Shown: positions 230 through 61,914 of the stretch, piece by piece
How positions within the stretch are numbered: the first letter of the stretch is position 1
Layout of the letters: the number at the start of each line of letters is the position of its first letter
From: Nitrospira sp. CR1.3
Lineage (GTDB): Bacteria > Nitrospirota > Nitrospiria > Nitrospirales > Nitrospiraceae
DNA: 64,000 nucleotides
Assembly: GCA_014055525.1 (NCBI GenBank)
Contig: WIAH01000016.1
Coordinates: 1-64,000, forward strand
Direction: 5' to 3'
Notes under the pieces: generated by a model
What the model saw: only the letters and a program-made list of their open reading frames with translations
Database searches by the model: none
What the model was told of the DNA's origin: nothing
Made by a program: the position numbers and the translations under genes

Positions 230-1227
230 GGAACCGTTTGCGCAGCTGAGGTGGTTTCCTGAACGGGCGTGAGGATCGTACTGGCTGGCGATAAGCCGTT
301 CTTAAACGGTAAGTCGAGGAGCGCATAGGGGTTCACGCGGGCGCCGTTGAGTTTGACGCCCCAATGGAGGTGCGGGCCGGTGGCGCGGCCGGTGGCGCCG
401 ACTTTGCCGATGATCTGTCCCGCCTTCACCAGATCACCGTCCTTGACCAGAACTTCCGACAAATGAAAATACATGCTGTAAAAACCCAGCCCGTGATCGA
501 CGAATATGCCTTTGCCGGAGAAAAAGTGGTCGACCGTGAGCCGGACAACTCCATCGTTCGTCGCCGCCACATCGGTCCCTGCCGGTGCGCCGATGTCCTC
601 CCCATTGTGGGGATTACGCGGCTGGCCGTTCATGATCCGAACGCTGCCGAAGATGCCGCTGCGCTTCCCGCTGACCGGCTCCACGAAATTGCTGCGCCAT
701 AGGCGCAAGGCTGAATTCTCAGCCAGAGCCTGCTTGACCTGATCCTGCTCGGCTTTCCATCGCGCGAGCGTTTTGTCGTCCAAATCGACCTTGTCCTTGG
801 GCAGCTTGAGATGTTCGACCGCGAATTTTTCCTTTGCCACCAACACATTGAAACTGAGATGTCTGATCGCTTCGCCGTTTTTTATGTCGACCACCAGCTC
901 ATAGGTGCCAGGATCGTCCTGCATGTCGATCCCAAGCAACCCCACATAGCCCGCTGGCTCGCCCGGTCTGGACTCCCGAAAGAACGGAATCGTCCGGTTG
1001 AGGAACGTCCCTTTGACTTCTGCAATCTCCGTAGCCTCCGGCACCTTCACCACCAGCACCTGACCCTGCTTGCCGCTGTATTGCCCGTCGATCCCTTTGG
1101 GCGGAGGGGGCGCATTCGAAAACAGTTCGACCGGAAACACGCTCGTCAGCAATACGACGGCAGTGATGACCGAGCGGTCCAAGCCCGATATCCGCTGATG
1201 GGCATGTCTAAGCGCTGGAATGATCAT
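217..1227 (-). CDS. M23 (LytM) family metallopeptidase, coupled to pafA
   Basis: 336-residue exported or membrane-anchored protein with a hydrophobic stretch near residues 18-36, then a beta-rich region, then a C-terminal LytM/M23 domain. The zinc-site motifs are visible: HNGEDIG near residue 209 and HLHWG near residue 287, so the domain looks catalytically intact. The family cleaves peptidoglycan cross-links or activates amidases. The start codon overlaps the pafA stop as ATGA, which implies translational coupling as the last gene of the proteasome operon. The C-terminal residues VPAKE and the stop are encoded by a copy of the 45-nt repeat, so the tail may have been replaced. No functional link to pupylation is evident. 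Confidence 0.85.
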   Translation of the reverse strand: MIIPALRHAHQRISGLDRSVITAVVLLTSVFPVELFSNAPPPPKGIDGQYSGKQGQVLVVKVPEATEIAEVKGTFLNRTIPFFRESRPGEPAGYVGLLGIDMQDDPGTYELVVDIKNGEAIRHLSFNVLVAKEKFAVEHLKLPKDKVDLDDKTLARWKAEQDQVKQALAENSALRLWRSNFVEPVSGKRSGIFGSVRIMNGQPRNPHNGEDIGAPAGTDVAATNDGVVRLTVDHFFSGKGIFVDHGLGFYSMYFHLSEVLVKDGDLVKAGQIIGKVGATGRATGPHLHWGVKLNGARVNPYALLDLPFKNGLSPASTILTPVQETTSAAQTVPAKE

Positions 1228-2639
1228 CGATAGAAACGCAATCCGGAGACTTGCGCCACCAGTTCATCGACGCGGCGATTCACCGCGCTGAATGGGTCCA
1301 TGCAGAGAATGGTTTCTTCCCAATAGCCGTTGAGCTTCAAATAGGTCCAATCCACTGTATACGATCGGTTCTTCGCCCTCGCGAACCGGATGAAGTCCCC
1401 ACGGACTTTTGCGCGTGTGGTTTGAGGCGGCGTGGACATGGCGCGCTGAACGGCGTCTTCCTCCACCACCCGTTCGATCAACCCGCGGGACTCCATGAGA
1501 TAGTATAACCCCCTGGTCCGCTTGACGTCGTGGAATTGAAGATCGAGGAGAAACACCCTTGGATCGTCCCAACCGCAGCCCTTCTTGTCGATGTAGGATT
1601 GGATGAGGTGCCGTTTCGTCACCCAGTCGATTTCGCGCACCAGTTGCATGGGGTCCTCTTCGAGCTTGTCCAGGATTTCCGCCCAGCGCTCCCAGACGTC
1701 ATCCAGTACCGGATCGTGATCCTGCTGTGAGAGGTACTCCTGCGCTCGTTCGAGGTAGACGCGCTGGATCTCCACGGCGGTCATTTGCCGGCCGTCGTCC
1801 AGCTTGACCTTGCGCTTCACCGTGGGATCGCGGGAGATCTCCCTGATCGCTTTCACGGGATCTTCGAGCTCCATGCCGTGAACGGTATAGCCTTCTTCGA
1901 TCATGGACAGCACCAGCGTCGCCGTTCCGACTTTCAAGAAGGTCACGAGCTCCGACATGTTGGAGTCGCCGACGATGATATGCAGGCGGCGATAGCGCTC
2001 CGCGTCGGCGTGCGGCTCATCCCGCGTGTTGATGATGCTGCGTGACGACGTCGTCGAGGAGGAGGTCTTTTCGTGAATGTGCTGCGCGCGTTGTGAGATG
2101 AAGAATTGCGGTTTGCCCGAAACCTTCAATACCTTTCCCGCGCCGCTATACACCTGCCTGGTCACGAAGAACGGAATGAGCTGCTCGGTGACCTTCCAAA
2201 AATCGACGTCGCGCCGCATGAGAAAATTTTCATGGCAGCCGTAAGTGTTTCCCAGTGAGTCGGTGTTGTTCTTAAAAATGTAGATCTCTCCCGACAGCCC
2301 CTCTTCGCGCAACCGTTCTTCCGCCGCCGGCAGGCAGGCTTCAAGCAGTCGCTCGCCGGCCTTGTCATGCACCACGAGATCCAGAATATTGTCGCATTCC
2401 GGCGTGGAATATTCGGGATGGCAACCCGTGTCCTGATAGAAACGCGCTCCGTTGACGAGGAACGCGTTGGAAGGCCAGCTGTTGGGAATGAGCCCCTCGA
2501 AGATATACCCCAATACCTTTTCCATCGGCAGGTAGATGCGGCCGTTCGGAGAAAAGATGAGCCCGTACTCGTTCTCCAGGCCGAAGATCCGCTGCCTCAT
2601 AGGACCGGGGGACATCATGGTTGTAAACACAGAATACAC
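1224..2639 (-). CDS. pafA: Pup ligase PafA
   Basis: Carboxylate-amine ligase of the glutamine-synthetase fold. It activates the C-terminal Glu of Pup with ATP and joins it to a substrate lysine. The ATP/Mg motif FGLENEYG lies near residue 19, followed by HPEYSTPEC, FKNNTDSLGNTYG and NTRDEPHA, all typical of PafA/Dop. It lacks the extra N-terminal loop that marks Dop (compare the gene at 4206), which is why I call it the ligase. The start is uncertain: a GTG at 2639 opens the frame, but Met14 (2600) fits known PafA N-termini better and neither has a clear ribosome site. It follows prcA by 53 nt. Confidence 0.93.
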   Translation of the reverse strand: MYSVFTTMMSPGPMRQRIFGLENEYGLIFSPNGRIYLPMEKVLGYIFEGLIPNSWPSNAFLVNGARFYQDTGCHPEYSTPECDNILDLVVHDKAGERLLEACLPAAEERLREEGLSGEIYIFKNNTDSLGNTYGCHENFLMRRDVDFWKVTEQLIPFFVTRQVYSGAGKVLKVSGKPQFFISQRAQHIHEKTSSSTTSSRSIINTRDEPHADAERYRRLHIIVGDSNMSELVTFLKVGTATLVLSMIEEGYTVHGMELEDPVKAIREISRDPTVKRKVKLDDGRQMTAVEIQRVYLERAQEYLSQQDHDPVLDDVWERWAEILDKLEEDPMQLVREIDWVTKRHLIQSYIDKKGCGWDDPRVFLLDLQFHDVKRTRGLYYLMESRGLIERVVEEDAVQRAMSTPPQTTRAKVRGDFIRFARAKNRSYTVDWTYLKLNGYWEETILCMDPFSAVNRRVDELVAQVSGLRFYR

Positions 2640-2692: not shown

Positions 2693-3376
2693 CTACGACT
2701 GGAGTTGTTTCGTTTCGGTTGGAGAAAAGCGGCGGAATTTTCGGCTGTCTCTGGTGCGATCGAGGACGGCGACCTCCAGGCTTTCCAGAGACAACTTTTG
2801 ATTGCCCGTCTGTTCTAATGCGGCGATGCAGAGGTTGAGCGCCATCCTGAGGTCGGGAAGCTGTGTCGGCATCCTGTCCTTGAGGACAGCTTGGACCGCC
2901 TCTGATTTCCCGCCGATGACGGCATACTGACGCTCGTCGATGATGCTGCCGTCGAAGGAAATCCGATACATTTCGTTGGCGTGGCCGTTATTCCCGATCT
3001 GCACGACGAGAATTTCCACCTCAAGCGGCTTCAGCTCCTGGCTGAAGATGGTTCCGAGACTCTGGGAATATCCGTTGGCCAGCGAACGGGCCGTCACGTC
3101 CTCGCGGCTATACATGAACCCCTTGAGATCGGCATGCCGGATGCCGGCCTTGCGGAGGTTCTCGAATTCGCTGTACTTTCCCGCCCCGGCGAAGGCGATG
3201 TTGTCGTAAATTTCGGAGATTTTGTGGAGGGACGCGCTGGGATTCTCCGCCGCCAGAAGGATTCCGTTCACGTATTCCATGGCAATGATCGACCGCCCTC
3301 TTGCAATTCCCTTCTTGGCGTACTCCGCCTTGTCCTGCATCATCTGCTCGGGCGAGACGTAGTAGGGCATCGGCAT
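2693..3376 (-). CDS. prcA: Proteasome alpha subunit PrcA
   Basis: 227-residue alpha-type 20S subunit. The N-terminus MPMPYYVSPEQMMQDKAEYA is the alpha-type signature region that forms the gated outer ring, followed by a Ntn-fold core with the usual GRSIIAMEYVNGILLAAEN strand. There is no propeptide or catalytic Thr, as expected for alpha. It sits 2 nt downstream of prcB. With PrcB it forms the four-ring core that accepts unfolded pupylated substrates from Mpa in the cytoplasm. Confidence 0.95.
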   Translation of the reverse strand: MPMPYYVSPEQMMQDKAEYAKKGIARGRSIIAMEYVNGILLAAENPSASLHKISEIYDNIAFAGAGKYSEFENLRKAGIRHADLKGFMYSREDVTARSLANGYSQSLGTIFSQELKPLEVEILVVQIGNNGHANEMYRISFDGSIIDERQYAVIGGKSEAVQAVLKDRMPTQLPDLRMALNLCIAALEQTGNQKLSLESLEVAVLDRTRDSRKFRRFSPTETKQLQS

Positions 3377-3378: not shown

Positions 3379-4206
3379 TCAGCTCTCCTTCGAGCGGCGG
3401 GCGGCAATCATGCCGTCATAAATGCCGCGAATCTGCTGCTCGGACACGTCCGTAATTCCTGTCGCATTCACGATCTTGGCGGTCGGATAGATGCCGCGCA
3501 CAAGGTCGGGGCCCCCGGTGCCGACATCGTCGTCGGCGGCGTTGTATAACGCCAACAGCGCCAGTTTCAGCGCCTCCTGTTCGGCCATTCCCTTGCGGAA
3601 ATGCTCCCGCATGGTATTCCGCGCGTCCTTTCCGCCTGAGCCGATGGCATGATAATCCGATTCCTCATACCGACCGCCTGCCAGATCATACTTGAAAATC
3701 CGTCCCTCTGCCCGCTTCACGTCGTACCCGACATAGAGGGGCATCACGACCAGGCCTTGAAAGACCATGGGAAGATTGGCCTTGACCATCTGTCCGAGCT
3801 TGTTGGCCTTGCCATCGCAGGACAGTTGCACCCCTTCCAGTTTCTCGTAATGTTCCAGTTCCGTTTGGAAGAGTTTGGCCATTTCAACGCAGGGCCCCGC
3901 GGCCCCCGCGATCGCCATGGCGGAGTAATCGTCGATCTTGAACACTTTTTCGATACGGCGCTCGGCGATTTGAAAACCTTCCGTCGCGCGCCGGTCTCCG
4001 GCGATCACGACCCCGTCTTGATACTTGAGGCCGAGGACCGTCGTGGCCTGCGGAACCGTCACGGCTCCGGCGGCCCGCAACGGATCTCCCGCTGAAAGCC
4101 CCGGCATCGCGGCAGCCCGAATACCCGGCGTCAGGTCCGGATGCTGCGCGGTGAGGAAGTCGAAAAAGCTGGGATCGTCGTGGTTGGGAAGAAACGGCAG
4201 CTTCAT
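3379..4206 (-). CDS. prcB: Proteasome beta subunit PrcB (with propeptide)
   Basis: 275-residue beta-type 20S subunit. A 54-residue propeptide precedes the predicted mature N-terminus TTVLGLKY, where Thr55 would be the nucleophile freed by autoprocessing. Lys and Asp of the catalytic set are in KYQDGVVIAGDRRAT downstream. The residue before the Thr pair is Ala rather than the Gly usual in actinobacterial PrcB. The ATG overlaps the dop stop by one base (TAATG), so there is no room for pup between dop and prcB, where actinobacteria usually carry it. Confidence 0.95.
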   Translation of the reverse strand: MKLPFLPNHDDPSFFDFLTAQHPDLTPGIRAAAMPGLSAGDPLRAAGAVTVPQATTVLGLKYQDGVVIAGDRRATEGFQIAERRIEKVFKIDDYSAMAIAGAAGPCVEMAKLFQTELEHYEKLEGVQLSCDGKANKLGQMVKANLPMVFQGLVVMPLYVGYDVKRAEGRIFKYDLAGGRYEESDYHAIGSGGKDARNTMREHFRKGMAEQEALKLALLALYNAADDDVGTGGPDLVRGIYPTAKIVNATGITDVSEQQIRGIYDGMIAARRSKES

Positions 4207-5705
4207 TAGGCTTTCAATTTCGCCAGCAGCGCCTCTGCGGTATCGGATTGCTCCAACAGGTCGCCCGTCAGCGCTTCGGTGCCGCGGAGGGGATCCATCA
4301 AGGGGACCTTCTTGATCGTCGTATTTCCCACGTCAAAGAGCACGGAGGTCCAACTCGCTCCATAGATCGAGTTTGAGAATTTCCCGACGCAGCGTCCCCG
4401 AAAATATGCGCGAGTCCCCGGAGGCGGCATGAACTCGGCTCTGGTAACCTCGACCTCCTGCACAATGCGCTCGATCATGTGCCCCCGCTCGAGGGTATAG
4501 TACAGCCCCTTCTCCGGCCGGATGTCGTGGTACTGGAGATCCATTAGGCGGATGCGGGAATCGTCCCATCCACAACCCTTGCGCTCCATATAGGACTCCA
4601 TCATATGGCGCTTGGCTACCCAGTCCAACTCCCGCACGAGCAGGCGCGGATCCCGTTCGAGTTTTTCCAGGACTTCTTCCCACCGCACGAGCACATCCTT
4701 GGTCACTTGAGGCAGGTCGTGACAGGCATAAAAGTTCATGGCCGCCTTGAGGTAGGCGCGCTGAATCGCCAGGGCGGTCGTGGAACGTCCCCCGGAAAGC
4801 TTGAGGGTCTCCCTGATCGTCAGGTCCCGGGACACCTGCTTGATGGCGCGAACCGGATCCTCCAACTCGAACTGCGGCAGGTCCGCTCCCGCCTCCACAA
4901 GATCAAGGACGATGGCCAGGGTCCCGATCTTCAGGTAGGTCGACAACTCCGCCATGTTGGCGTCGCCGACGATCACGTGCAGCCTGCGGTACTTCGAGTA
5001 TTCCGAATGCGGCTCATCGCGTGAGTTGACGATCGGACGCTTCACCATCGTGTTCAGATCGACGAGACATTCGAAGAAATCCGCCCGTTGAGAGATCTGA
5101 TAGTCGGCCGGGCTCGTCTGGTTCTCGGCTCCGACCTTTCCCGCGCCCGCGAAGATGGGACGGGTCACGAAGAACGGGGCCAGCACCTGGACGAGACGGT
5201 CGAACGGCACGGCGCGCGACACCAGATAATTCTCGTGATAGCCGTAACTGTTTCCTTTGCCGTCGGAATTGTTCTTGTAGAGCACGAGCTGCTCCCGCCC
5301 CCTCGCCCGCGTCATCGCGTCAAGACATTGAGCGAGTATCTTCTCGGCGACCCGTTCGAAGGCCACGACCTCCCGCGGATTCGTACATTCAGGCGTGGAA
5401 TATTCGGGGTGGGCGCCGTCGACGTAGAGGCGGCCTCCGTTGGCGAGCACTTTGTTCAGCTGGCGATTATAATCGGGATTCGGCCGCTCGCGTTCTCCCT
5501 CGACTTCGAATCCCCTGGCGTCGAGCAGCGGATTCTCATTTTCGTAATCCCAGACGGCATGGGGAACCGACAGCCCCGGATAATGCCCGATGACGGCGAG
5601 TGAGTTCGTGATGGGATCCGCCATGGCGGCGTCACGCGAGGCGATGCCGAATTCCGTCTCCGTACCCAGCACGCGAGGAGTCGTAGGAGCGTTAGCGTCC
5701 GACAT
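4206..5705 (-). CDS. dop: Depupylase / Pup deamidase homologue Dop
   Basis: 499-residue paralogue of PafA. It has GTETEFGIASRDA at the N-terminus and the Dop-specific insert (about residues 40-85, including ENENPLLDARGFEVEGE) between the first strand and HPEYSTPEC. The family deamidates Pup-Gln and hydrolyses Pup from substrates. Because the Pup in this window ends in Glu (54779-54976), deamidation is not needed and Dop probably acts as depupylase only. It lies 11 nt after mpa and is coupled to prcB. Confidence 0.94.
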   Translation of the reverse strand: MSDANAPTTPRVLGTETEFGIASRDAAMADPITNSLAVIGHYPGLSVPHAVWDYENENPLLDARGFEVEGERERPNPDYNRQLNKVLANGGRLYVDGAHPEYSTPECTNPREVVAFERVAEKILAQCLDAMTRARGREQLVLYKNNSDGKGNSYGYHENYLVSRAVPFDRLVQVLAPFFVTRPIFAGAGKVGAENQTSPADYQISQRADFFECLVDLNTMVKRPIVNSRDEPHSEYSKYRRLHVIVGDANMAELSTYLKIGTLAIVLDLVEAGADLPQFELEDPVRAIKQVSRDLTIRETLKLSGGRSTTALAIQRAYLKAAMNFYACHDLPQVTKDVLVRWEEVLEKLERDPRLLVRELDWVAKRHMMESYMERKGCGWDDSRIRLMDLQYHDIRPEKGLYYTLERGHMIERIVQEVEVTRAEFMPPPGTRAYFRGRCVGKFSNSIYGASWTSVLFDVGNTTIKKVPLMDPLRGTEALTGDLLEQSDTAEALLAKLKA

Positions 5706-5716
5706 GGAGTGATGGA

Positions 5717-7486
5717 CTAGAGATAGTGACCAGTTGTGACGGTTTCAATCTGACGTGAGTCGGTCGGCCCGCCGCTGATCGTCCGGATGTGGACGATCTT
5801 CTCGCCTTTCTTCCCGGCCACCTTGGCCCAGTCGTCTGGGTTGGTCGTATTGGGCAGGTCCTCGTGCTCCTTGAACTCTTCCCGGATCGCCCGGATCAGG
5901 TCCTCGGATCTGAGCCCGCGGCCTTCTTGAGCGATCGCCCGCTTGACCGCATACTTCTTGGCGCGCGACACGATGCCTTCGATGAGGGCTCCGCTGGCGA
6001 AATCCTTGAAGTAGAGGATTTCCTTTTCGCCGTTGGCGTAGGTCACTTCGATGAATTTGTTCTCTTCCGACGTCGCGTACATCGCGTCGACCGTGATCTG
6101 GGTCAAATGCTCGACCAAGGCTTTCACATCGCCTCCGTGCCGCTTGACTTCTTCTTCCGCAAACGGGAGGTCCGCTCCGACATACTTGGAGAAGATGTCT
6201 CTGGCCGCCGCGGCATCGGGTCGGCCGACTTTCACCTTGACGTCCAGCCGACCGGCGCGCAGAACCGCGGGGTCGATCAGATCCTGGCGATTGCTGGCCC
6301 CGATCACAATCACGTTCCGCAGGCTCTCGACGCCGTCGATCTCGGAGAGAAACTGCGGCACAATTGTGGACTCGATGTCGGAGGAAATCCCCGTGCCGCG
6401 CGTGCGGAACAACGCATCCATTTCGTCGAAGAAGACGATCACAGGATTGCCGTCTGCGGCGCGTTCCTTTGCCTTCTTGAACACCTCGCGTACCTGCCGC
6501 TCCGATTCCCCCACATACTTGTTGAGCAATTCAGGTCCTTTGACGTGCAGGAAGTAACTCCGGACTTCTTTTCCCGTCAGGTGGCCGAGCTTCTTCGCAA
6601 TCGAGTTCGCCACGGCTTTGGCGATCAATGTCTTCCCGCAACCGGGCGGTCCGTACAGCAAGACGCCCTTGGGAGCGCTGAGCTGAAACTCGGCGAACAG
6701 TTCCGGATGCAGGAACGGCAACTCCACCGCATCCCGCACCTGCTCCAACTCGCGCTGGAGTCCGCCGATACGGGCATAGTCCACGTCCGGCACTTCCTCA
6801 AGCACCAACTCCTCGGCTTCCGACTTCGGCAGTTTTTCAATGACGCAGCCGGATCGAGGATCATAGAGGAGATGGTCGCCGACGCTGAGACGCTCAAGCA
6901 GCAGGGGATCACCCAGCTCCGCCACCTTCTCTTCGTCGAAGTGCAGCGTCACCAACGCCCGGTTCCCTTCCAGCAAGTCCTTCAGACGCACCACCTCGCC
7001 CTGGACGTCGAATCCTTTCGTCTCGATGACATTGAGCGCTTCGTTCAGGATCAGTTCCTGCCCCTTCCGCAATTCTTTCCCCTTGATGGAGGGATGGAGG
7101 CTCACCTTCATTTTCCGGCCCGAGACGTACACATTGCCGGTGCCGTCCGGATTGAGGCTCGAAAAGATGGCGTAGGTCGAAGGCGGGGCGGTCAGCTTTT
7201 CCACCTCGGCGCGCAAGGCTTCGATCTGGGCCTTCGCTTCCTGCAAGGTGACGACGAGCTTTTCGTTCTGTTTGGTGGCTTGATCGAGTTGATAGCGGGA
7301 TTGGTACAGCCGACGGATTTCTTCCTCCATCGACTGGATCTGCACACGAAGCTTCTCGGCTTCGCGGGCATGTTCATCGTTGCGATGCATCACATCCGCC
7401 TCTCCCTCGGACAACCGCTTGGTCATTCGCTTGACGGAATCCCGGAGGGACCGGAGCCGACTTGGACTTCCTTTCTTCTCGGCCAT
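5717..7486 (-). CDS. mpa: Proteasome-associated AAA ATPase Mpa/ARC
   Basis: 589-residue ring ATPase. Its order is: N-terminal coiled coil (about residues 15-95, rich in Glu/Lys heptads, the Pup docking site in known homologues), OB domains (about 95-230), then one AAA domain with Walker A GPPGCGKT near residue 280 and Walker B VIVFFDEMD near 348. It ends in GHYL, matching the short C-terminal tail that docks the ATPase on the 20S alpha ring. It is the first gene of the operon, behind the promoter at 7545-7573. It unfolds pupylated proteins and threads them into PrcAB. Confidence 0.95.
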   Translation of the reverse strand: MAEKKGSPSRLRSLRDSVKRMTKRLSEGEADVMHRNDEHAREAEKLRVQIQSMEEEIRRLYQSRYQLDQATKQNEKLVVTLQEAKAQIEALRAEVEKLTAPPSTYAIFSSLNPDGTGNVYVSGRKMKVSLHPSIKGKELRKGQELILNEALNVIETKGFDVQGEVVRLKDLLEGNRALVTLHFDEEKVAELGDPLLLERLSVGDHLLYDPRSGCVIEKLPKSEAEELVLEEVPDVDYARIGGLQRELEQVRDAVELPFLHPELFAEFQLSAPKGVLLYGPPGCGKTLIAKAVANSIAKKLGHLTGKEVRSYFLHVKGPELLNKYVGESERQVREVFKKAKERAADGNPVIVFFDEMDALFRTRGTGISSDIESTIVPQFLSEIDGVESLRNVIVIGASNRQDLIDPAVLRAGRLDVKVKVGRPDAAAARDIFSKYVGADLPFAEEEVKRHGGDVKALVEHLTQITVDAMYATSEENKFIEVTYANGEKEILYFKDFASGALIEGIVSRAKKYAVKRAIAQEGRGLRSEDLIRAIREEFKEHEDLPNTTNPDDWAKVAGKKGEKIVHIRTISGGPTDSRQIETVTTGHYL

Positions 7487-7544: not shown

Positions 7545-7573
7545 ATTCTATCATCCGGTATTTTCATGGTCAA
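7545..7573 (-). promoter_or_regulatory. Sigma70-type promoter of the proteasome operon
   Basis: Read on the minus strand: -35 TTGACC (7568-7573), a 17-nt spacer, and -10 TAGAAT (7545-7550), each matching consensus at 5 of 6 positions. The predicted start of transcription is about 50 nt before the mpa ATG. It is the only good match in the 134-nt gap between thiE and mpa. Confidence 0.6.
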
Positions 7574-7620
7574 CAGGACGACAGGTTCTTGCGCGCGCAT
7601 TCACTTGCGCTCCATAATCA

Positions 7621-8253
7621 TCACAACGATGAAGCCAGCGCGTCGAGCATTTCACGCGTGGCGCGTTCAACGTCAGCGGCGGAGAGAATCGCCGTGATGA
7701 CCGCAACACCGAATGCGCCGGCTCGACGCACTTCCATTACACGCGCAGCGGTAATCCCGCCGATCCCGACGACCGGAATTCGCACGTTCCGGCAGACCGT
7801 TTCCAGTTCGCGCAGCCCCAGCGGCGGGCCGAACAGCTCTTTGGACGGCGTCGCATAGATCGGTCCGAACACGACATAGTCCGCTCCTTCCGATTCTGCC
7901 CGCACCACCTCTTCCATGGAATGCGCCGACACACCGAGGAGACGATCGGCGCCCAGCACACGACGCCCGGCGAAGACCGGCAGACTGTTGCTCCGCAAAT
8001 GCACGCCGACATCATTCAGCGTCAAGGCAAGGTCGATACGGTCGTTGATGACCAATGGACTTGCGCAACGTCTAGTTAATTGTTGTACGTCTCGGGCGAG
8101 CGACAACAACTCTCTTGAATAGAGATCGCGCTCGCGAAGCTGAACAGCGGGTGCGCCAACCCTGAGCACCTCTTCCAACAACGGAAGCATCGGGCGCCCG
8201 AGAGTCTGCTGTCGATCGGTGACGAGAAGTAGGCGAGATTCAAACCGCGGCAT
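7621..8253 (-). CDS. thiE: Thiamine phosphate synthase ThiE
   Basis: 210-residue TIM-barrel enzyme that couples HMP-pyrophosphate to thiazole phosphate to give thiamine monophosphate. Family landmarks are present: LLLVTDR at strand 1, VQLRERD, VINDRIDLAL, GVHLRS, GVSAHSMEE, DYVVFGPIYATPSK and the phosphate-binding VVGIGGIT. Length is normal. It is the last gene of thiS-thiG-thiE, 28 nt after thiG. Confidence 0.93.
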   Translation of the reverse strand: MPRFESRLLLVTDRQQTLGRPMLPLLEEVLRVGAPAVQLRERDLYSRELLSLARDVQQLTRRCASPLVINDRIDLALTLNDVGVHLRSNSLPVFAGRRVLGADRLLGVSAHSMEEVVRAESEGADYVVFGPIYATPSKELFGPPLGLRELETVCRNVRIPVVGIGGITAARVMEVRRAGAFGVAVITAILSAADVERATREMLDALASSL

Positions 8254-8281
8254 GAAGAACGGTTATTTCGTTCGAGAGAAC

Positions 8282-9055
8282 CTATAACATCCCTTCGATC
8301 GGGCTGCTGGCCGTGGCATACAGCTTTCGGGGAATCCGGCCGGCCTTATAGGCGAGTCGTCCGGCCTGCACGGCGTATTTCATCGCCTCCGCCATCGCGA
8401 TGGGATCTTGCGCGCCGGCGATCGCCGTGTTCATCAGAACTGCATCGGCCCCGTATTCCATCGCAAGGGCGGCATCCGACGCAGTCCCGACTCCGGCATC
8501 AACCACGATCGGTACCTTGACCGTTTCCATGATGATCTTCAAATTGTAGGGATTGCGGATGCCGAGGCCCGATCCGATGGGCGCGGCAAGGGGCATGACC
8601 GCGGGGCAGCCGATATCCACGAGCTTCTTCGCCACGATCGGATCGTCGTTCGTATAAGGCAGAACGATAAATCCTTCCTTAATAAGAATCTTGGCCGCTT
8701 CGATCAGACCGGCCGTATCGGGGAACAGGGTTTTTTCATCCCCCAACACCTCCAGTTTGACCAGATCGGATACGCCGGCGGCCCTGGCGAGTCTCGCGTA
8801 CCGCACCGCATCTTCGACCGTATAGCAGCCGGCTGTGTTCGGAAGGATGACGTATTTTTTCGGATCGATGTAGTCGAGCAGGTTCTCTTTCGATCGATCG
8901 GTGATGTTGACGCGCCGCACGGCCACCGTCACCACATCGGCCCCGGAAACTTCGATCGCTTTCTTGGTTTCGGCGAAGTCCTTGTATTTTCCCGTGCCCA
9001 CCCAGAGCCGAGACTTGAACTCCCGGCCGGCAATCACCAGGCGATCATCATACAT
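8282..9055 (-). CDS. thiG: Thiazole synthase ThiG
   Basis: 257-residue TIM-barrel enzyme that forms the thiazole phosphate of thiamine from DXP, dehydroglycine and ThiS thiocarboxylate. The Schiff-base lysine is Lys100 in [30 protein letters not shown] and [20 protein letters not shown] are the expected phosphate loops. It is 2 nt downstream of thiS. No dehydroglycine-forming thiO or thiH is in this window. Confidence 0.96.
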
Positions 9056-9057
9056 GG

Positions 9058-9303
9058 CTATCGACCTCTTCCTTTGTTCCGGATCGTCTTCGCGCCGCCG
9101 CCGATAAAGCTGAGGATTTCCACCCGATCCCCTTCCTGCAGGTTGCGCCGATCGAAGTCCTTCCGGTCCAGGATTTCCAGATTGAGCTCAACGGCCACCC
9201 GCTCGGTCGTGATGGCGAGTTCGCGCAGCAGATCCCCGATCGTTGTGCCGGTGCGAAGGCCCCGCGGCTCCCCGTTCACCTGAACCTGAATCGCATCGGC
9301 CAT
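9058..9303 (-). CDS. thiS: Sulfur carrier protein ThiS with C-terminal extension
   Basis: 81-residue beta-grasp carrier starting at [15 protein letters not shown] eight bases upstream supports this start over one 24 nt earlier. The usual end, FIGGG, is followed by 11 more residues ([11 protein letters not shown]). Known ThiS proteins end at the Gly pair, which is adenylated and then thiocarboxylated, so this tail would have to be trimmed first or the gene reads past a lost stop. Identity as ThiS is firm from position and fold motifs. Confidence 0.88.
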
Positions 9304-9399
9304 GGGCTTCATCCTAGGGAACCGCAAATCCGGTTGTCAACAAAGAGCCCGCGACATCCACTTGCCACCATGGAATAAGGCGCGGCACAATATCGTCCC

Positions 9400-50707: not shown

Positions 50708-52888
50708 CTATGACTTTTCCTGCCAGGCCCGTACCCGCCTCGCCGTAATCACCCCGTCGACTCGTTCGATAGCTTTCAACACCTGATCCAAGTGCTGCGT
50801 ACCGGACACCTCGACGATAAAGTCGAGAACCGCCTTCCGATCTTCCCGAGTCGCGATCTCCGCTCGACTGATATTCGCGTGGCATTCCGCGATCGCCGAC
50901 GACACATTCGCCAGCACTCCGGTTTTGTCCACAGCCATGACCGACACCTTGACGGCGTGCGTGCCGGGGGTGGCCGAGTCCCATTCCACCTCAACCAGTC
51001 GCTCCCGATCATAGTCCAACGCTTCAAGGTTGGGACAATCGATCGCGTGGATCGTCAGGCCTCTTCCACGCGTGATGTATCCGAGAATCCGGTCTCCGGG
51101 AACCGGATTGCAACAGCGGGATAACTGCATCAACAAATCCCGGGCTCCTTTGACCTTTACCCCTTTGTCGTCCGCTCTACCGGTCAGCGGCTTGTGGGCG
51201 GCAGGCTTCTCCTGGACAGCCGTCTCGGCTCCGGTCTGCAAAGCCGTGAGCTTGCCGACCACTTGAGATGTCGGCACATGACCGAACCCGACCGCAGCAG
51301 CCAGATCATCGGTCGTATCGAATCCCGCCTGCTGAGCGACATCCAGCAAATCGGACGACTTCAGCATCTGAGCCGGCGCCATCCCGTGACGCCGGAACTC
51401 CGACTCCAATAATCGGCGTCCGATCTCGATGCTGCGTTTCTGCTCCTCAACCTTGATCCAATGTTTGATCTTGGTCTTGGCTCGCGACGTGCGGACGAAC
51501 TTCAACCAGTCCTTATGGGGCGTCTGAGTGGGTGAAGTGAGGATTTCCACCGTATCTCCGCTCTCCAACTGGTGCTTGAGAGGGACGATTTTTCCGTTCA
51601 CCTTCGCGCCCACGCAGTGATCGCCGACTTCCGTATGGATCGCAAAGGCAAAGTCGACCGGCGTCGAGCCTTTGGGCAGCTCCTTGACGATCCCTTTAGG
51701 CGTAAACACATACACGACGTCATGAAACAGGTCCAGCCTGACCGAATCCATGAACTGACGGTTATCGGTCAGATCCTTCTGCCATTCGACGAATTGATGC
51801 AACCAGCCGAACGCCTTGCTGTCCCGATCTGTGACCCGGCCCTGCTCTTTGTACTTCCAGTGAGCCGCAATACCGTACTCGGCCACCCGGTGCATGTCTT
51901 CCGTTCGAATCTGAAACTCGACATGCTCGCCTTTCGGACCGACCACTGTCGTATGCAGCGACTGATAGAGATTGGATTTGGGAATGGCGATGTAATCCTT
52001 GAAACGCCCGGGAACCGGCCGCCAGAGGGAATGGATCACTCCCACCAAGGCATAGCAACTCATCTTCGTATCGGTCACGATGCGCAGCGCCGTCAGGTCG
52101 TAGACTTCCTCAAAGGAGATCGACTGCTTGTTCATCTTCTGATAGATGCCGTACAGGTGCTTGGGGCGGCCGTAGACCTGTCCGAACAGCCCGTTCTCCC
52201 GCATCGCCTGATTGACCAGCTGGATCACCTCACGGATGTACTGCTGGCGATCCTCATCCCGCTTCGCAACACGAACCCGTAACAACTCATGGACATCGGG
52301 CTTCAGGTGCTTCAGGCACAAATCTTCCAGCTCATTCTTGATCCATCCGATCCCCAGCCGATTGGCCAGCGGAGCATAGATTTCCAAGGTTTCCTGCGCG
52401 ATGGCCTGTCGCTTTGCCTGGCTGAGATGCTCCAGTGTCCGCATGTTGTGGAGGCGATCCGCCAGTTTGATGAGGACGACCCGAATGTCGTCCGCCATCG
52501 ACAGCACCATCTTCCGGAAGTTCTCCGCCTGCTTTTCCTCGTAACTCTTGAACGTAATCTTGCCGATCTTCGTGACTCCATCAACAAGATGCACGACATC
52601 CTTGCCGAATTCCTTCTCCAATTCCTCGGGCGTGGCCACGGTATCTTCCAGCGTGTCGTGGAGCAATCCTGCCACGATGGCGGTCACGTCCGTCTTCAAT
52701 GAGGTCAGGACCCCGGCAACGGCGATCGGATGCTGCAGGTATGGTTCGCCGGAACGGCGGACCTGACCCTTGTGCGCCTTGGCAGAGAACTCGTAGGCCT
52801 TGCGCACAACGCCCAAATCGGCGTCCGCGTGATAGCTTTTGACCCGATCCAGCAGCTGGTCGAGATCTGTCACGGTTTCGTAAACCAT
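50708..52888 (-). CDS. RelA/SpoT-type (p)ppGpp synthetase/hydrolase
   Basis: 726 residues. Order: HD hydrolase domain (AGLLHDTLEDTVAT, intact HDxxED), synthetase domain (EEVYDLTALRIVTDT, RFKDYIAIPKSNLYQSLHTT), TGS domain near residue 400 (VYVFTPKGIVKELPKGSTPVDFA), and a C-terminal ACT domain. Intact HD and synthetase motifs point to a bifunctional Rsh controlling the stringent response. It begins 4 nt after recJ ends. Confidence 0.95.
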   Translation of the reverse strand: MVYETVTDLDQLLDRVKSYHADADLGVVRKAYEFSAKAHKGQVRRSGEPYLQHPIAVAGVLTSLKTDVTAIVAGLLHDTLEDTVATPEELEKEFGKDVVHLVDGVTKIGKITFKSYEEKQAENFRKMVLSMADDIRVVLIKLADRLHNMRTLEHLSQAKRQAIAQETLEIYAPLANRLGIGWIKNELEDLCLKHLKPDVHELLRVRVAKRDEDRQQYIREVIQLVNQAMRENGLFGQVYGRPKHLYGIYQKMNKQSISFEEVYDLTALRIVTDTKMSCYALVGVIHSLWRPVPGRFKDYIAIPKSNLYQSLHTTVVGPKGEHVEFQIRTEDMHRVAEYGIAAHWKYKEQGRVTDRDSKAFGWLHQFVEWQKDLTDNRQFMDSVRLDLFHDVVYVFTPKGIVKELPKGSTPVDFAFAIHTEVGDHCVGAKVNGKIVPLKHQLESGDTVEILTSPTQTPHKDWLKFVRTSRAKTKIKHWIKVEEQKRSIEIGRRLLESEFRRHGMAPAQMLKSSDLLDVAQQAGFDTTDDLAAAVGFGHVPTSQVVGKLTALQTGAETAVQEKPAAHKPLTGRADDKGVKVKGARDLLMQLSRCCNPVPGDRILGYITRGRGLTIHAIDCPNLEALDYDRERLVEVEWDSATPGTHAVKVSVMAVDKTGVLANVSSAIAECHANISRAEIATREDRKAVLDFIVEVSGTQHLDQVLKAIERVDGVITARRVRAWQEKS

Positions 52889-52892: not shown

Positions 52893-54596
52893 TCACTCAG
52901 TCATCGTCGGTCGCACGTCACGGATGCGGAGCTGGATCCGGTCGTACCCGTTCCAGCTGTTGAGTTCGGGAATAAAGGCCAAATCGACCGGCACACGGGG
53001 AGGAATCCCTCGTTCCTGTAATGATCTCATCCCGAAACCAATACTATCAAACGGCAGGGAGCGGCCCTGCCGTACCGTCATTTTCAAGTGTTTCTCCCCG
53101 ACGGTGCGGGACTCCATTACTTCCAGGCCCTTAACAGCAAACGTCGGCTCTGGATTGCCCGCGCCGAAGGGATGCAGCGCGCCGATTTCCTGAATCAACC
53201 TGGCGGTCACCTCGGCAAGCTGTAACTCCACATCGACGTGCAACGTCGGCACCATTGTACGACCGCTTGCCCAGGCGGCGGCGACTCCGGTAAACCGCTC
53301 CCGAAACTTCTCGAGCCCGCTCTCGCGCAGAGTGACGCCAGCCGCGCTCGGATGTCCGCCGAAGGCCTCCACCAGATCCCGGCAGGCAGCCAACCCCTGA
53401 TAGAGGTCGAAGCCTCCGACCGTGCGCGCCGACCCCTTTCCCACCCCCTGTTCATCAACGGCAATGACAATCGTCGGACGGTGGAACCGTTCGACCAGCC
53501 TGGCCGCGGCAATGCCGACGACTCCCACATGCCAGCGGCGGGAAGCCAGCACGAGCGCAGCGGGCAATTCCTGTTCTTGCGCCTTCACTATGGCCACCGC
53601 CTCCGACATCATGTCGGCTTCGATCCGTTGACGTTCGCGATTGAGTTGCTCGAGCCGCTCGGCCAGCCGCTGCGCTTCAGCCGGCGACTCCGTCGTCAAG
53701 AGTTGCACTCCCAGCAGAGCGTGGTCCAATCGGCCGGCCGCATTGAGCCTCGGAGCCAACTTGAAGGCAATGGTTTCGGCCGTGCAGTCCTTCGTCACGC
53801 CCGCAACCTGCTTTAACGCGCGGATGCCGCAACGAGACCCGCGCGACAGCTGCGCCAGGCCTTCACGGACAAACCCCCGGTTTTCATCATGGAGCGGAAC
53901 CACATCGGCAATCGTGGCCAAGGCGACCAGGTCCATCAGTGACTCCAGCGGAATACCGGCATCCCCATAACGAGACTGGTAGGCCTCAACCACCTTGTAA
54001 GCCAGAGCGGCGGAGCAGAGCCCGCGGAACGGATACTGAGCGCCCGCTCGATGCGGATTCATCAGCGCCAGCGCCGGAGGCAGCTGCTCATTCGTCTGGT
54101 GATGGTCCGTGACGATGACGTCCATGCCCAGTTCGTTGGCCAGCGCCACCTCACGATGAGAGGTTGTGCCGCAATCGGAGGTGACCAGGAGCGAGATGCC
54201 TTCGCCGTGCAGCAGCCGGACAGCTGCCAGATTGAGCCCATACCCTTCTCGTTGACGATGGGGGACATAGGCGCGCACGGAAGCCCCCAAGGCGCCGAAG
54301 AACGAGAGATACAGGCTGGTCGCGGTCATGCCGTCCACATCGTAGTCGCCGTAGAAACAAACCGGCTCATGATCGACTACGGCTCGGCGTAAGCGTTCGA
54401 CCGCCTGCTCCATATCCGGAATGAGGTAGGGATTATGCGGGGGCTGATGGGACATCCAGGAAGCGGCCTCGTTCGGCGTGGTCACGCCGCGCGCGACGAG
54501 CAGCGAGGCTGTGGCGGAAGAGATGGATAGGGCCTGCGCCAGAGCCGCACGATGGGTGGGATCGATATCGCGGAAGACCCAGAGCTTGGACCTCAT
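52893..54596 (-). CDS. recJ: Single-strand DNA exonuclease RecJ
   Basis: 567 residues starting MRSKLWVFRDIDP. DHH-family motifs: FYGDYDVDGMTATSLY, LVTSDCGTTSHREV and DVIVTDHHQTNE; DHHA1 region with GGHPSAAGVTL, and the C-terminal OB fold. A 5'-3' exonuclease in recombination and mismatch repair. It is the 5' neighbour of rsh in one operon. The 182-nt gap 54597-54778 has a small hairpin near 54695 but no gene. Confidence 0.94.
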   Translation of the reverse strand: MRSKLWVFRDIDPTHRAALAQALSISSATASLLVARGVTTPNEAASWMSHQPPHNPYLIPDMEQAVERLRRAVVDHEPVCFYGDYDVDGMTATSLYLSFFGALGASVRAYVPHRQREGYGLNLAAVRLLHGEGISLLVTSDCGTTSHREVALANELGMDVIVTDHHQTNEQLPPALALMNPHRAGAQYPFRGLCSAALAYKVVEAYQSRYGDAGIPLESLMDLVALATIADVVPLHDENRGFVREGLAQLSRGSRCGIRALKQVAGVTKDCTAETIAFKLAPRLNAAGRLDHALLGVQLLTTESPAEAQRLAERLEQLNRERQRIEADMMSEAVAIVKAQEQELPAALVLASRRWHVGVVGIAAARLVERFHRPTIVIAVDEQGVGKGSARTVGGFDLYQGLAACRDLVEAFGGHPSAAGVTLRESGLEKFRERFTGVAAAWASGRTMVPTLHVDVELQLAEVTARLIQEIGALHPFGAGNPEPTFAVKGLEVMESRTVGEKHLKMTVRQGRSLPFDSIGFGMRSLQERGIPPRVPVDLAFIPELNSWNGYDRIQLRIRDVRPTMTE

Positions 54597-54763
54597 GACG
54601 CCCTCGCAAGGAAGCCTGAGCCTCGGAGACACGTAACCGGCGGTAAATTAAGGCGATACTATAAGTTCATTCCTGCTTTGTCAAACCGGTTCCTCAAGGA
54701 CCGGTGGGTGAAGACTGTGTGGGTAAGCGGAGCAGGTGGAAAGAGGAATGGAGGAAGAGTCAG

Positions 54764-54779
54764 GCGGTCGAGCGACCGC
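54764..54779 (-). terminator. Short hairpin at the pup stop
   Basis: GCGGTCG (54764-54770) and CGACCGC (54773-54779) form a perfect 7-bp stem with a 2-nt loop, overlapping the last base of the pup stop. No T-run follows on the minus strand, so it may protect the 3' end rather than stop transcription. Confidence 0.3.
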
Positions 54780-54976
54780 TACTCTCCCCCTTTCTGCACG
54801 TAGTTCTTGACGAATTCTTCCGCGTTTTTTTCGAGGACGTCATCGATTTCGTCGACCAGCTTGTCGATGTCTTCCTTCAACTTCTTGCCGGCCTCGACGA
54901 CCTTGGGATTGGCCTTGACCTCTTCCTTCCCCTGCGGGTCTCTTCTCGGCTCCTGCTTGCGCTCCTGTTTTTCCAT
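54779..54976 (-). CDS. pup: Prokaryotic ubiquitin-like protein Pup
   Basis: 65 residues, starting MEKQERKQEPRRDPQG; GGGAGGTG precedes the ATG, so an N-terminal extension to 55066 is rejected. The C-terminal half closely matches known Pup: KLVDEIDDVLEKNAEEFV, then NYVQKGGE. It ends in Gly-Gly-Glu, the ready-to-ligate form that needs no Dop deamidation. The Mpa-binding coiled-coil region is residues 25-55. It stands alone between recJ and hppA, about 47 kb from mpa-dop-prcBA-pafA, with its own candidate promoter at 55037-55066. Confidence 0.95.
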   Translation of the reverse strand: MEKQERKQEPRRDPQGKEEVKANPKVVEAGKKLKEDIDKLVDEIDDVLEKNAEEFVKNYVQKGGE

Positions 54977-55036
54977 TCGAGCACCTCCCGTGAGACTGGG
55001 ACCGCCTCGTGGATCTGCGCGTGACCCCGTGCAATC

Positions 55037-55066
55037 ACCATACTCCAGGAAATGGAAACCCGTCAA
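55037..55066 (-). promoter_or_regulatory. Candidate pup promoter
   Basis: Minus strand TTGACG (55061-55066), 18-nt spacer, TATGGT (55037-55042). The -35 matches 5 of 6 and the -10 4 of 6. Leader of about 55 nt to the pup ATG. Confidence 0.4.
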
Positions 55067-55144
55067 GACAAGCAGCAGAACGTGAAGCGCCGTTCCAGAG
55101 AATACTTTAGGAACAGCGCTTCATGAGCGAGTGGGATCGCTTAC

Positions 55145-55265
55145 AGGATGTTCAAAATGGTCTTTCAGCAAGGCCGCAGCAAGCGAGGACCCGAGGCGTA
55201 CTCTTTTCGTACGTTGAGGGTCTAAGCGCTGCGAGAACGAAGCTGGAAGCCATTTTCAACATCCT
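55145..55265. repeat. Long (about 120-bp) imperfect palindrome ending at the hppA stop
   Basis: Outer arms AGGATGTTCAAAATGG (55145-55160) and CCATTTTCAACATCCT (55250-55265) pair with one mismatch. Inside are GCAAGGCCGCAGCAAGCGAG, GAGGCGTACTCTTTTCGTACG and CGCTGCGAGAACGAAGC. The right arm overlaps the hppA stop. Looks like an intergenic repeat unit; I see only this copy here. Confidence 0.7.
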
Positions 55266-57318
55266 ATTTCACGATCAGCGACACAATGAGCAGAGCCACA
55301 ATATTAATGACCTTGATCATCGGATTAATGGCCGGCCCGGCGGTGTCCTTGTACGGATCTCCCACCGTATCGCCCGTGACCGCCGCCTTATGTGTATCGG
55401 TGCCTTTCTTCCCCTGCTCCTCGATAAACTTCTTGGCATTGTCCCAGGCGCCGCCGCCGCTGGTCATGGAGATCGCCACGAAGAGACCAGTTACGATGCT
55501 GCCGACGAGCACGCCGCCGAGCGCCTGCGGACCCAGAATCACGCCGACAAGGATGGGGGACACAACCGGAATCAATCCCGGCACCATCATTTTCTTGATC
55601 GCCGCCTGTGTCACGATATCCACGCAGGTGCCGTATTCCGGTTTGCCGGTGCCTTCCATGATTCCTTTGATCGTTCTGAACTGCCGGCGAACCTCCTCCA
55701 CCACCAGACCAGCAGCCTGCCCGACGGCCTTCATGCAGAGCGCGCCGAAGATAAACGGTAGCATCCCGCCTAGGAACAATCCGACCAGGACGGAAGGATT
55801 GGAGAGGTCGAAGGTGCTCGCCCCGCTTCCTTTTCCCACTTCGCGCGCGTATTCGGCAAAGAGGACCACTGCTGCGAGACCGGCCGACCCAATCGCGTAG
55901 CCCTTCGTAACCGCCTTCGTCGTGTTGCCGACCGCGTCCAATGGATCGGTGATGTTCCGCACTTCCTTACCGAGATGGGCCATTTCCGCGATCCCGCCCG
56001 CATTGTCGGTGATCGGACCGAACGCGTCGATCGCCACGACGATCCCCGCCATCGACAGCATCGATACGGCAGCCACAGCGACGCCGTACAACCCTCCCGA
56101 GGCAGCGCCGCCACAAACCCAGTAGCTGCCCAAAATCGCCGCGCCGATGACGACGACGGGCCAGGCTGTGGCCTGCATCCCGACGGCGAGCCCCGCGATG
56201 ATGTTCGTCGCGTGGCCTGTTTCGCTGGCCTTCGCAATGGACTTCACAGGCTCATAGCTCTTTGAGGTGTAGTAATCGGTGATGAACACGAGTGCCAGCG
56301 TGACAGCCAGCCCCATCAAGGCCGCGAGGTAATAGCTCATGCCGCTGACGCCGCCGACGCCTTCCATAATTTTCGACGTGATGGGATAAAACGCCACGCC
56401 GGCGATGCCGCCCGCAACGAACAGCCCTTTGTAGAGGGCGGGCATGATCTCGCCACCCGGACTTACTTTGACGAAGAGAATGCCGATGATGGTCGCGAAG
56501 ATGGTCACGCCGCCCAGCGCCAGGGGATACAGAATCGGCGCGCTGGCTCCCTTGAATAAGGTGAACGCGAGCACCATGGCGGCCACCGTCGTGACGGCAT
56601 AGGTTTCGAAGAGGTCTGCCGCCATGCCGGCGCAGTCCCCGACATTATCCCCCACGTTGTCCGCGATCACCGCGGGATTGCGCGGATCGTCTTCCGGAAT
56701 ACCCGCTTCGACTTTGCCGACGAGATCGGCGCCTACGTCCGCCGCTTTCGTATAAATTCCTCCGCCGACACGCGCGAAGACGGAAATCAAGCTGCCGCCG
56801 AACCCAAGACTCAACAAAGCATGGATCGCTTTTTCCTGACCGGCAATCGATTGCGCGATGGTATAGAACCCGGTGATCGCCAGGAGACCCAGGCCGATCA
56901 GCAACAATCCCGTCACGGCGCCGCCACGAAAGGCCACAGTCAAGGCAGTGTTCATGCCGTCGTGCGCCGCCTGTGCCGTCCGGACGTTCGCCCGCACCGC
57001 GATGATCATGCCGACATAGCCGGCCAGCGCCGAGGCGCTTGCGCCGACGAGGAATCCGACCGCCGTCAGCAGACCGAACTTATCTGAGACTGCGCCGGCC
57101 CCTGCCAGCACGACAAACAACACGGCCGCCACGACGCCGACCGTCTTGTACTGCCGGTTCATGTAGGCGCCGGCCCCCTCCTGGATGGCCTTGGAAATTT
57201 CCTGCATCTTCGCGTTGCCGGCATTCAGCTTGAACACCCACATCGCGAGATAGAGGCCATAGGCGATGCCGGCCACTGCCGCGATCAATGCAAAGGCGAT
57301 TATCTCTGAGTCGCTCAC
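55264..57318 (-). CDS. hppA: Membrane-bound proton-pumping pyrophosphatase (K+-independent type)
   Basis: 684 residues from a GTG with AGGAGGG upstream, about 16 membrane segments. Substrate-site motifs are intact: [40 protein letters not shown] and the C-terminal [14 protein letters not shown]. The diagnostic loop reads [10 protein letters not shown]; Lys at this place marks K+-independent enzymes. It pumps protons using pyrophosphate, saving ATP, useful for a slow-growing chemolithotroph. Not in an operon with pup, which lies 287 nt downstream. Confidence 0.95.
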
Positions 57319-59265: not shown

Positions 59266-59349
59266 GCGCGTGAAGCGTCCTTCGTATCTCGCAAAACAAG
59301 GATACCCTTGGACTCCATCGAGATACGTTTTACGAGCGACGAACGACGT
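59266..59349. repeat. GAGATACG intergenic repeat, copy 2
   Basis: 59320-59349 matches 45270-45299. A left half (CGTATCTCG at about 59283) is the reverse complement of CGAGATACG, so this copy can form a hairpin. It fills the convergent gap between the 84-residue gene and the cytochrome gene and ends at the latter's stop. Confidence 0.65.
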
Positions 59350-60602
59350 TACTTGTTGATGGGTATATTGTCCGTCCGTTTGACGATTTCGATCGGCTGG
59401 AAGACGGGATCCTGCGATCCCTTCGAGGATTCGGCTTCAATGCGCTGGAGGAAGGGAGCCGGCCCCGTCACCGGGGCGTAACTCAGCGTCGCTTCGACAT
59501 CGAACGTCTTGGTTTCCTTGGGCGTCGGGAACGTAAAGGTTTCGACGCGCAGTTCTTCCGGTTTCAAGACCGTATCCTCTAACACCTTGACCGCGTCGAA
59601 ATCGAAGTTCGTTTTCTGACCCTTGACGTCCTGATACAGCCTGCCGTACACGCGCTTTTCCGAAAATACGGTCTTGAGGTTTTTTCCCCTGATTTCGAGA
59701 TCGAGGACCACGCTGGCCCAGGCCGGATGGGTCGTCGGAAGATTATGCGGCACGAGACTCTGCACCTTGACGATCACGGTCGTCTTGTCACCCTCGACTT
59801 TCGTCTCCACATCGAGCTTTGCCGCTTCCTGGCGCAGCTTGCCGATGCGGCCGGGAAAGGTATGGTTCGCGACGGTCCGCTTTTTCTCTCCATTGGCCGA
59901 TTCTCCGGTCTGTTCTGGCATATGGCAGGTCTGGCATTCCTTGCCTGATTTGACGGCTTTGCTTTGATCCCAATTGCCGAGCAGATCGTTGGTCTTACCG
60001 AGATTGGCCGCGGAGGGCACGGACTGATGACAGTTCAGGCATAAATCGGACTTTCTGAAGAGGCCCAACTCCATCGATTGATGGGCGAGATTCGTCGCAA
60101 AGTCCTTGTACGGGCCGTAGAGGATTTTGCTCCCGGGAGGCTCGTATTTCGGCTCGGGAGGCTGCTTCGTCCGATCCACCTGTTTGATCAAGTGACATTG
60201 CGCGCAGGCGACACCGTCGATCTGAGGATCGCCCGATTTCGCCTGGTCGATGAAGAGCTGCGCCTGGTCCTGAAACTCGCGCACGTGCGGAGCATGGCAA
60301 CGGAAACAGAGCGCCTTGTCCTTTCCCGCCGGGGAGGCGAGAAAAGCATCGAGCGCCGCGCGGAAGGCCGGCGAGTGAATCGACCTGGACAGCGGCGAGG
60401 TTTCCCATTCTTCGAACACGCGCTCGTGGCAACGCTTGCACTTATTGGAATTCGGAAAGGTCTTCTCGATCGCGGCCTGGGATTTGGCATCCTGGGCAAA
60501 GATGCGGCCATCGAGCAGGTGCGACCACGCCGCCGCCGTCACAATGAGCGAGACCCCCAGTATCGTCTTCACACCCGTTGAGCTGAGCATGATCATTCGC
60601 AT
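59349..60602 (-). CDS. Periplasmic pentaheme c-type cytochrome (tandem copy b)
   Basis: 417 residues with a signal peptide (TILGVSLIVTAAAWSHLLDG). Five CxxCH sites: CKRCH, CFRCH, CAQCH, CLNCH and CQTCH, all before residue 235. The first is followed by ERVFEEWETSPLSRSIHSPAF, as in c554-type proteins. The C-terminal 170 residues are a beta-sandwich (PHNLPTTHPAWASVVLDLEI). Downstream of a homologous gene by 16 nt; last gene of the cluster. Confidence 0.9.
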   Translation of the reverse strand: MRMIMLSSTGVKTILGVSLIVTAAAWSHLLDGRIFAQDAKSQAAIEKTFPNSNKCKRCHERVFEEWETSPLSRSIHSPAFRAALDAFLASPAGKDKALCFRCHAPHVREFQDQAQLFIDQAKSGDPQIDGVACAQCHLIKQVDRTKQPPEPKYEPPGSKILYGPYKDFATNLAHQSMELGLFRKSDLCLNCHQSVPSAANLGKTNDLLGNWDQSKAVKSGKECQTCHMPEQTGESANGEKKRTVANHTFPGRIGKLRQEAAKLDVETKVEGDKTTVIVKVQSLVPHNLPTTHPAWASVVLDLEIRGKNLKTVFSEKRVYGRLYQDVKGQKTNFDFDAVKVLEDTVLKPEELRVETFTFPTPKETKTFDVEATLSYAPVTGPAPFLQRIEAESSKGSQDPVFQPIEIVKRTDNIPINK

Positions 60603-60618
60603 CCGTCGTTCGACATTC

Positions 60619-61914
60619 CTAAAGGTTCTTCGCCCGGTAGGTCAGCATGCGGGGTTGCGTGTATTCGTCGAGAATCTTCTTCGCGCTCTCCCGTTCTTTA
60701 TCATTCTCCAGGCTGGCCAGATACTTGTCCTTCAAGGCCCGGTCGGGAGTCGGAATCAATCCATAGCTCAAAACGGCTTCGACCAATGCCGGGACGGACC
60801 CCGCAGGAACCGCCAGCGAAAACGGCACCTTCCTCGTATTTCCGCCTTTAATGAATGGGTCGGGGATGGGGCCCCGAAGAATCTTGTCGTACGGCAATCC
60901 GAACTGCTTCGTCTCTTGAGCCAAGAGCTTTCCCTTCGCATCCTTCACGGTCAGCGCAAGAAAGAACTGCTTGAGGACCGGATCGCCGTCCGGAAAGCTG
61001 TGCGGAAGACTGCCCACTTTCACCAGCGCCGTTCCTTCCACTCCGGCCGAGGATTTGGTGGCCTCGATATCCACACGCGGCATCCATTCGGCCTGCAAAT
61101 TGCGATTCTTGAGCAAAGTGCCGGGAATAACGACGCCTCGGAACCAATGCCGGCCGATCGAGCGTGTCATCGCTCCGCGCTTCGACGTTGAACTCCCTGT
61201 GGACGGCTCCATGTGGCAATCCTGACAAATCGTGCCCTGCAGGATTTCTCCGGGCAGATTCTTCTGCGTCACGTCCTTCACCTTGTCGAAATGACAGGAG
61301 GCGCAATAGTTGGCCCCTCGATATAGCTCCGATTGCTCAGCCGGATGAACCAGATTCTCCTCCGGATCGGCGTAGGGACCGTGCATCGTCTTCCCCGGCT
61401 CGATCTTGAATGTCGGCGGCGGAGCTATGGTGGCTTCGACCGATTTGATCAAGTGACAGGACGCGCATCCGATCCCTTCGATCTGGGGCTTGCCGGAGAG
61501 GACCTGCGACACGATCTTCTCCGCATGCTGTGGAAATACGGTGGTCGAGGGCACATGGCAGGAGAGACACCGCCGGCGTTCATCGGCGGTCGGATTCGTC
61601 TGCATCCAGATCCCGAGCACGGTGCGAAATACCGGCGATTCCAGCGAGGTGCCGTGCAAGAGCGCCGCGTCGACGCGTCCGAATGTCTTAAGATCCGGCG
61701 TTTGCTCGCGGGCGCCCTTCCACTCTTCATAATGACGATCGTGACACTGCTTGCAATCCTCCGACCGGATAAAGATCTTCTCGATCTCGGATATCCAATC
61801 CCCCGCGGCCTGACCGTCCGCCTTCTGCGCGATGGCCCGATCATGAAAGAGGCAGTTGACGCCGACGACCAGAAGGAGGAATCCAGCTGTAGCTATGCGT
61901 GGTCCGATTTGCAT
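60619..61914 (-). CDS. Periplasmic pentaheme c-type cytochrome (tandem copy a)
   Basis: 431 residues with signal peptide (AGFLLLVVGVNCLFHDRAIA). Five CxxCH sites: CKQCH, CLSCH, CASCH, CASCH and CQDCH. Same plan as the genes at 59349 and 43008: haem domain, then beta-sandwich with LPHSFPDGDPVLKQFFLAL. In the N-terminal haem segment HYEEWKG is kept but the following residues differ. Likely passes electrons in the periplasm; 7 nt after the PDZ gene. Confidence 0.9.
   Translation of the reverse strand: MQIGPRIATAGFLLLVVGVNCLFHDRAIAQKADGQAAGDWISEIEKIFIRSEDCKQCHDRHYEEWKGAREQTPDLKTFGRVDAALLHGTSLESPVFRTVLGIWMQTNPTADERRRCLSCHVPSTTVFPQHAEKIVSQVLSGKPQIEGIGCASCHLIKSVEATIAPPPTFKIEPGKTMHGPYADPEENLVHPAEQSELYRGANYCASCHFDKVKDVTQKNLPGEILQGTICQDCHMEPSTGSSTSKRGAMTRSIGRHWFRGVVIPGTLLKNRNLQAEWMPRVDIEATKSSAGVEGTALVKVGSLPHSFPDGDPVLKQFFLALTVKDAKGKLLAQETKQFGLPYDKILRGPIPDPFIKGGNTRKVPFSLAVPAGSVPALVEAVLSYGLIPTPDRALKDKYLASLENDKERESAKKILDEYTQPRMLTYRAKNL

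Follow-up and report, generated by a model that had tools for sequence, protein, structure and literature searches.

An early survey stated that pup invariably adjoins a ligase gene (PMC2588565). In Nitrospira sp. CR1.3 an apparent pup stands by itself, and this raises the question of whether it is a real gene and, if so, how a protein tag came to be encoded apart from its enzymes. The gene lies at 54779..54976 on the minus strand of the stretch of DNA that we analysed (64,000 nucleotides, hereafter the window), has an ATG start and encodes 65 residues with the C-terminus NYVQKGGE. A previous reading of the window from sequence only (the sequence-only reading) had assigned this product to Pup, and profile searches bear out the assignment. 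Pfam PF05639 matched along the C-terminal half with 76.7 bits (cut-off 27) and TIGR03687 with 61.6 bits (cut-off 41.45), so that both curated cut-offs are passed, and the C-terminal G-G-E/Q signature of the Pup family is present as KGGE. The product falls outside the UBact family (NF033388 / PF20513), the Pup profiles alone giving a match. Comparison with 14 relatives gave pN/pS values of 0.015-0.11 with 18-33 synonymous changes per comparison. Such low values with so many synonymous changes argue that the frame is translated and under constraint and is not a chance open reading frame. We thus take 54779..54976 to be a real Pup gene under purifying selection.

The genes with which Pup would work are found near the other end of the window, in an operon on the minus strand that consists of the proteasome ATPase gene ARC/mpa (5717..7486), dop (4206..5705), prcB (3379..4206), prcA (2693..3376) and pafA (1224..2639). 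Each of the five products scored above its own NCBIfam equivalog cut-off, which completes the Pup-proteasome gene set. The operon is preceded by a promoter, GTTGACC-N17-TAGAAT (7545..7574, minus strand), of a conserved type (TTGACC-N17-TAGAAT). We infer by analogy with Actinobacteria that PafA joins Pup to proteins and that Dop removes it. The ARC start and the pup stop are 47.3 kb apart, in agreement with the earlier estimate of about 47 kb, and dop shares a single base with prcB (TAATG at 4206), which leaves no room for pup between them, again as first described. A single Pup match, the one at 54779-54976, was found in the genome (assembly of 3.46 Mb, 92.65% complete), with no second pup near dop. 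A pup remnant between dop and prcB was also considered and rejected; three relatives carry 230-410 bp of extra DNA at this place that resembles a dispersed repeat.

The sequence-only reading took the detachment of pup as a feature of one genome. It is real here, but the comparison of gene order across Nitrospirota that the same reading had proposed showed that it is fixed throughout the order (Nitrospirales). We placed pup relative to PrcB in a sample of 246 Nitrospirota genomes, 115 of which carry Pup, each with exactly one copy. The gene was detached in all 84 Pup-bearing genomes of the order as against none of the 31 outside it. The latter (12 of the same class and 19 of the same phylum) all have the order dop-pup-prcB, in which prcB immediately follows pup on the same strand, with a profile gap between the two of 116-185 bp (31/31). 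The canonical arrangement, in which pup lies beside both a PafA-family gene and prcB, is absent here and across the order. Among the detached genes 38 were on the same contig as PrcB, at distances of 41 kb to 1.4 Mb, 44 were on another contig and 2 came from genomes without a strong PrcB match; since several genomes of the order are single contigs, assembly fragmentation does not account for the detachment. The family of CR1.3 takes in Nitrospira and comammox genomes, for example CG24E and CG24C. Two of its members, G162 and G244, gave no Pup match, and true loss of pup was rejected for both because an intact recJ region is absent as well (missing or cut by a contig end), making an assembly gap likely. 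Among named genomes sampled more widely, pup adjoins proteasome genes in almost every other phylum, except in two records from Methylomirabilota (NC10) and one from Rokubacteria. The genomes concerned hold two or three pups; some of the copies at these loci (L178, L179 and L183) lie apart from proteasome genes, and in the two NC10 records one copy follows a molybdopterin-binding-like gene.

Throughout the order (84/84) the gene that immediately follows pup, on the same strand, is recJ, or rel in genomes that have lost recJ. In the window these neighbours are recJ (52893..54632, minus strand, with its start at GTG 54632 or ATG 54596) and, downstream of it, rel of the RelA/SpoT family (50708..52888, minus strand). 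In the outgroups recJ and rel are adjacent without pup, and the gap between dop and prcB measures 185-272 bp and contains pup; in most members of the order this gap is -1 to about 110 bp. The Dop sequences of the order grouped as a single clade (100/100), and so did its Pups (98/87), the Pup tree being built on an alignment of few columns. Since both trees agree on this point, a single relocation in the ancestor of the order would be the simplest history. No intermediate genome with two pup copies was seen among the 115 Pup-bearing Nitrospirota. On its upstream side pup borders hppA, encoding a membrane pyrophosphatase (55264..57318, minus strand), and an inverted repeat between the two genes (55084..55122, minus strand) is a possible hppA terminator. 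The same intergenic region holds a REP-like inverted repeat (55140-55262), whose 28-base core occurs only twice in the genome; similar elements (L077, L141-L143) follow pup in one other genome and lie in the dop-prcB gap in three. Upstream of hppA, a pair of adjacent multihaem cytochrome-like genes (59349-61914) is conserved in many members of the family.

The detached gene appears to carry its own expression signals, and the putative promoter identified by sequence footprinting was located where the sequence-only reading had placed its candidate. It lies at 55037..55067 on the minus strand and consists of CTTGAC (-35) and TATGGT (-10) with a spacer of 18 (hexamers TTGACG at 55066-55061 and TATGGT at 55042-55037), with transcription expected to start near 55030. 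The pattern CTTGAC-N16-19-TANNNT preceded pup throughout the family (67/67 distinct upstream regions), in 13/17 of the sister family and in 0/22 of the outgroups, with a chance rate of 0.1% or less in dinucleotide shuffles. The ribosome site noted in the same reading, GGGAGGTG (54982..54989, minus strand), is a very strong Shine-Dalgarno sequence with a duplex energy of -16.4 kcal/mol, compared with -1.2 to -10.3 kcal/mol for the genes of the operon, and is the strongest among the pathway genes of the genome; mean energies were -15.7 kcal/mol in the family and -10.0 kcal/mol in the outgroups. We rejected the idea of a riboswitch or other leader structure ahead of pup: Rfam gave a sub-threshold microRNA match alone, and no conserved leader structure was found by RNAalifold (consensus of -0.45 kcal/mol). 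At the 3' end a terminator-like hairpin of -21.5 kcal/mol spans the pup stop codon (54753..54788, minus strand). Its tail in the window is pyrimidine-rich without a clean T run, and a pattern scan called no terminator on the minus strand there. In the shuffle test (p<=0.05) such a hairpin was significant for 43% of family members, 29% of the sister family and 0% of the outgroups, and thus fell short of significance in over half of members. The KGGE codons supply the 5' arm of the hairpin (AAAAGGGAGGGGAATAGTCCCCTCCCTTTT is an example), and at many loci (e.g. L074, L078 and L108) coding and termination signals overlap through these codons. Judged by sequence, pup is a single-gene transcription unit; the one copy, the lack of a remnant, the footprinted promoter, and the hairpin and separate recJ promoter on its 3' side all support the view of a stand-alone gene that had been put forward.

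We propose, with a probability of roughly 0.7, that pup is the sole functional Pup gene of a complete system, that it moved once, in an ancestor, to the recJ-rel pair, that it has been kept there as a one-gene unit and that Pup is supplied under separate control, and in larger amounts, than the enzymes and core are. In the ancestor of the order pup would have given up its slot in the dop-prcB gap for a site upstream of the already old recJ-rel pair. It would then have been maintained under a promoter of its own, with a strong ribosome site and with a terminator-like hairpin at its end, ARC-dop-prcB-prcA-pafA meanwhile retaining the promoter of the operon. A separate and higher supply of Pup would fit the role of a tag, of which more is consumed than of its catalysts. 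The sequence-only reading had suggested that Pup supply may be set apart, and the architecture is indeed separate, but conservation of the promoter is no proof of different regulation, because a detached gene needs a promoter anyway.

For the same reason, that any free gene needs a promoter, the strongest rival explanation is a neutral relocation without regulatory meaning, in which pup kept the promoter required for its survival in a region that rearranges slowly. Adjacency of recJ and rel is itself old and stable across the phylum, the distances between pup and prcB cluster at 41-63 kb in many genomes of the order much as in ordinary synteny, and a small diffusible protein need not be encoded near its enzymes. 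Neutrality is at odds with a ribosome site far stronger than in the outgroups, and with the fact that pup stayed in place despite loss of recJ or hppA in several lineages and at distances from prcB of up to 1.4 Mb. We consider the neutral account possible, though doubtful.

It is unlikely that pup heads an operon with recJ and rel and shares the regulation of the stringent response or of DNA repair. The constancy of neighbours, strand and order in 84/84 genomes, with pup beside rel even where recJ is lacking, would suit such an operon, but the hairpin spans the pup stop codon, and recJ has a promoter of its own, TTGACA-N17-TAGTAT (54656..54684, minus strand), conserved downstream of pup (64/67 in the family, 6/17 in the sister family). 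Still less probable is that the detached pup is a foreign copy (a xenologue) or a duplicate that took the place of the one in the operon. The multiple pups of Methylomirabilota and Rokubacteria, some of them away from proteasome genes, provide a precedent, and the few columns behind the Pup tree leave such a history some room; against it, each of the 115 Nitrospirota has one copy, and in the Pup tree the single clade of the order excludes the NC10 copies.

A second Pup-type system, overlooked in the sequence-only reading, coexists with the first in the genome of CR1.3. A full UBact operon is present on another contig (C21; locus L036, G000:C21:230000-242918, 2592-9324) with ARC-like, Dop-like, UBact, PrcB-like, PrcA-like and PafA-like genes. 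The modifier, of 64 residues, matched NF033388 with 79 bits and PF20513 with 74.8 bits; its gene overlaps its own Dop-like gene, and a DegP/HtrA-like gene lies just upstream. Detachment of pup as an adaptation to having UBact is very improbable, since despite this operon and the four Pup-ligase homologues of most family members the distribution, judged from ligase homologue counts, contradicts it: members of the family and sister family with only two homologues also have a detached pup, and several outgroups of the class with four keep pup in place. More tentatively, we may speculate that the order runs two tag-and-degrade systems in which the Pup branch is controlled by tuning the Pup pool alone from the dedicated promoter and UBact remains tied to its enzymes, and that the level of Pup rather than that of the ligase sets pupylation.

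All six components and the C-terminal signature of Pup are common to the Nitrospira system and that of Actinobacteria (in Mycobacterium dop-pup-prcB-prcA, and pafA). Unlike in Mycobacterium, pup is here its own unit 47 kb away and not between dop and prcB, and its product ends in GGE and not GGQ. The other Pup systems of Nitrospirota have a homologous operon and a closely related Pup, but their pup is upstream of prcB. The UBact system of Gram-negative bacteria shares this gene set except for its small modifier, which belongs to a separate family and is still encoded within the operon. Within the searchable literature, which takes in only a minority of subscription papers, we found no earlier description of a detached pup in Nitrospira. 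The rule of the early survey (PMC2588565) is broken by an entire order, with Nitrospira and comammox genomes among its members, apparently through one event. The order thereby offers a natural experiment in which a protein tag is uncoupled from its enzymes, and cultured Nitrospira could be used to test whether tag supply limits bacterial protein tagging. There is also a practical warning in that pup can be missed if the proteasome operon alone is inspected.

The terminal Glu, which the sequence-only reading took to spare Dop the deamidation of Pup, was correctly read but is ordinary. Among Nitrospirota Pups GGE and GGQ endings alternate, GGE being commoner and GGQ scattered inside and outside the order, and Dop is kept throughout. 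Corynebacterium glutamicum likewise has a Pup ending in Glu and yet retains Dop, which serves as depupylase (PMC3511204); it differs in being without proteasome core genes and in having pup directly before pafA. Two Pups in our sample contain internal duplications, one at L104 (KVVEAGKKLKVVEAGKKLK) and one at L054, where an ENA segment is repeated.
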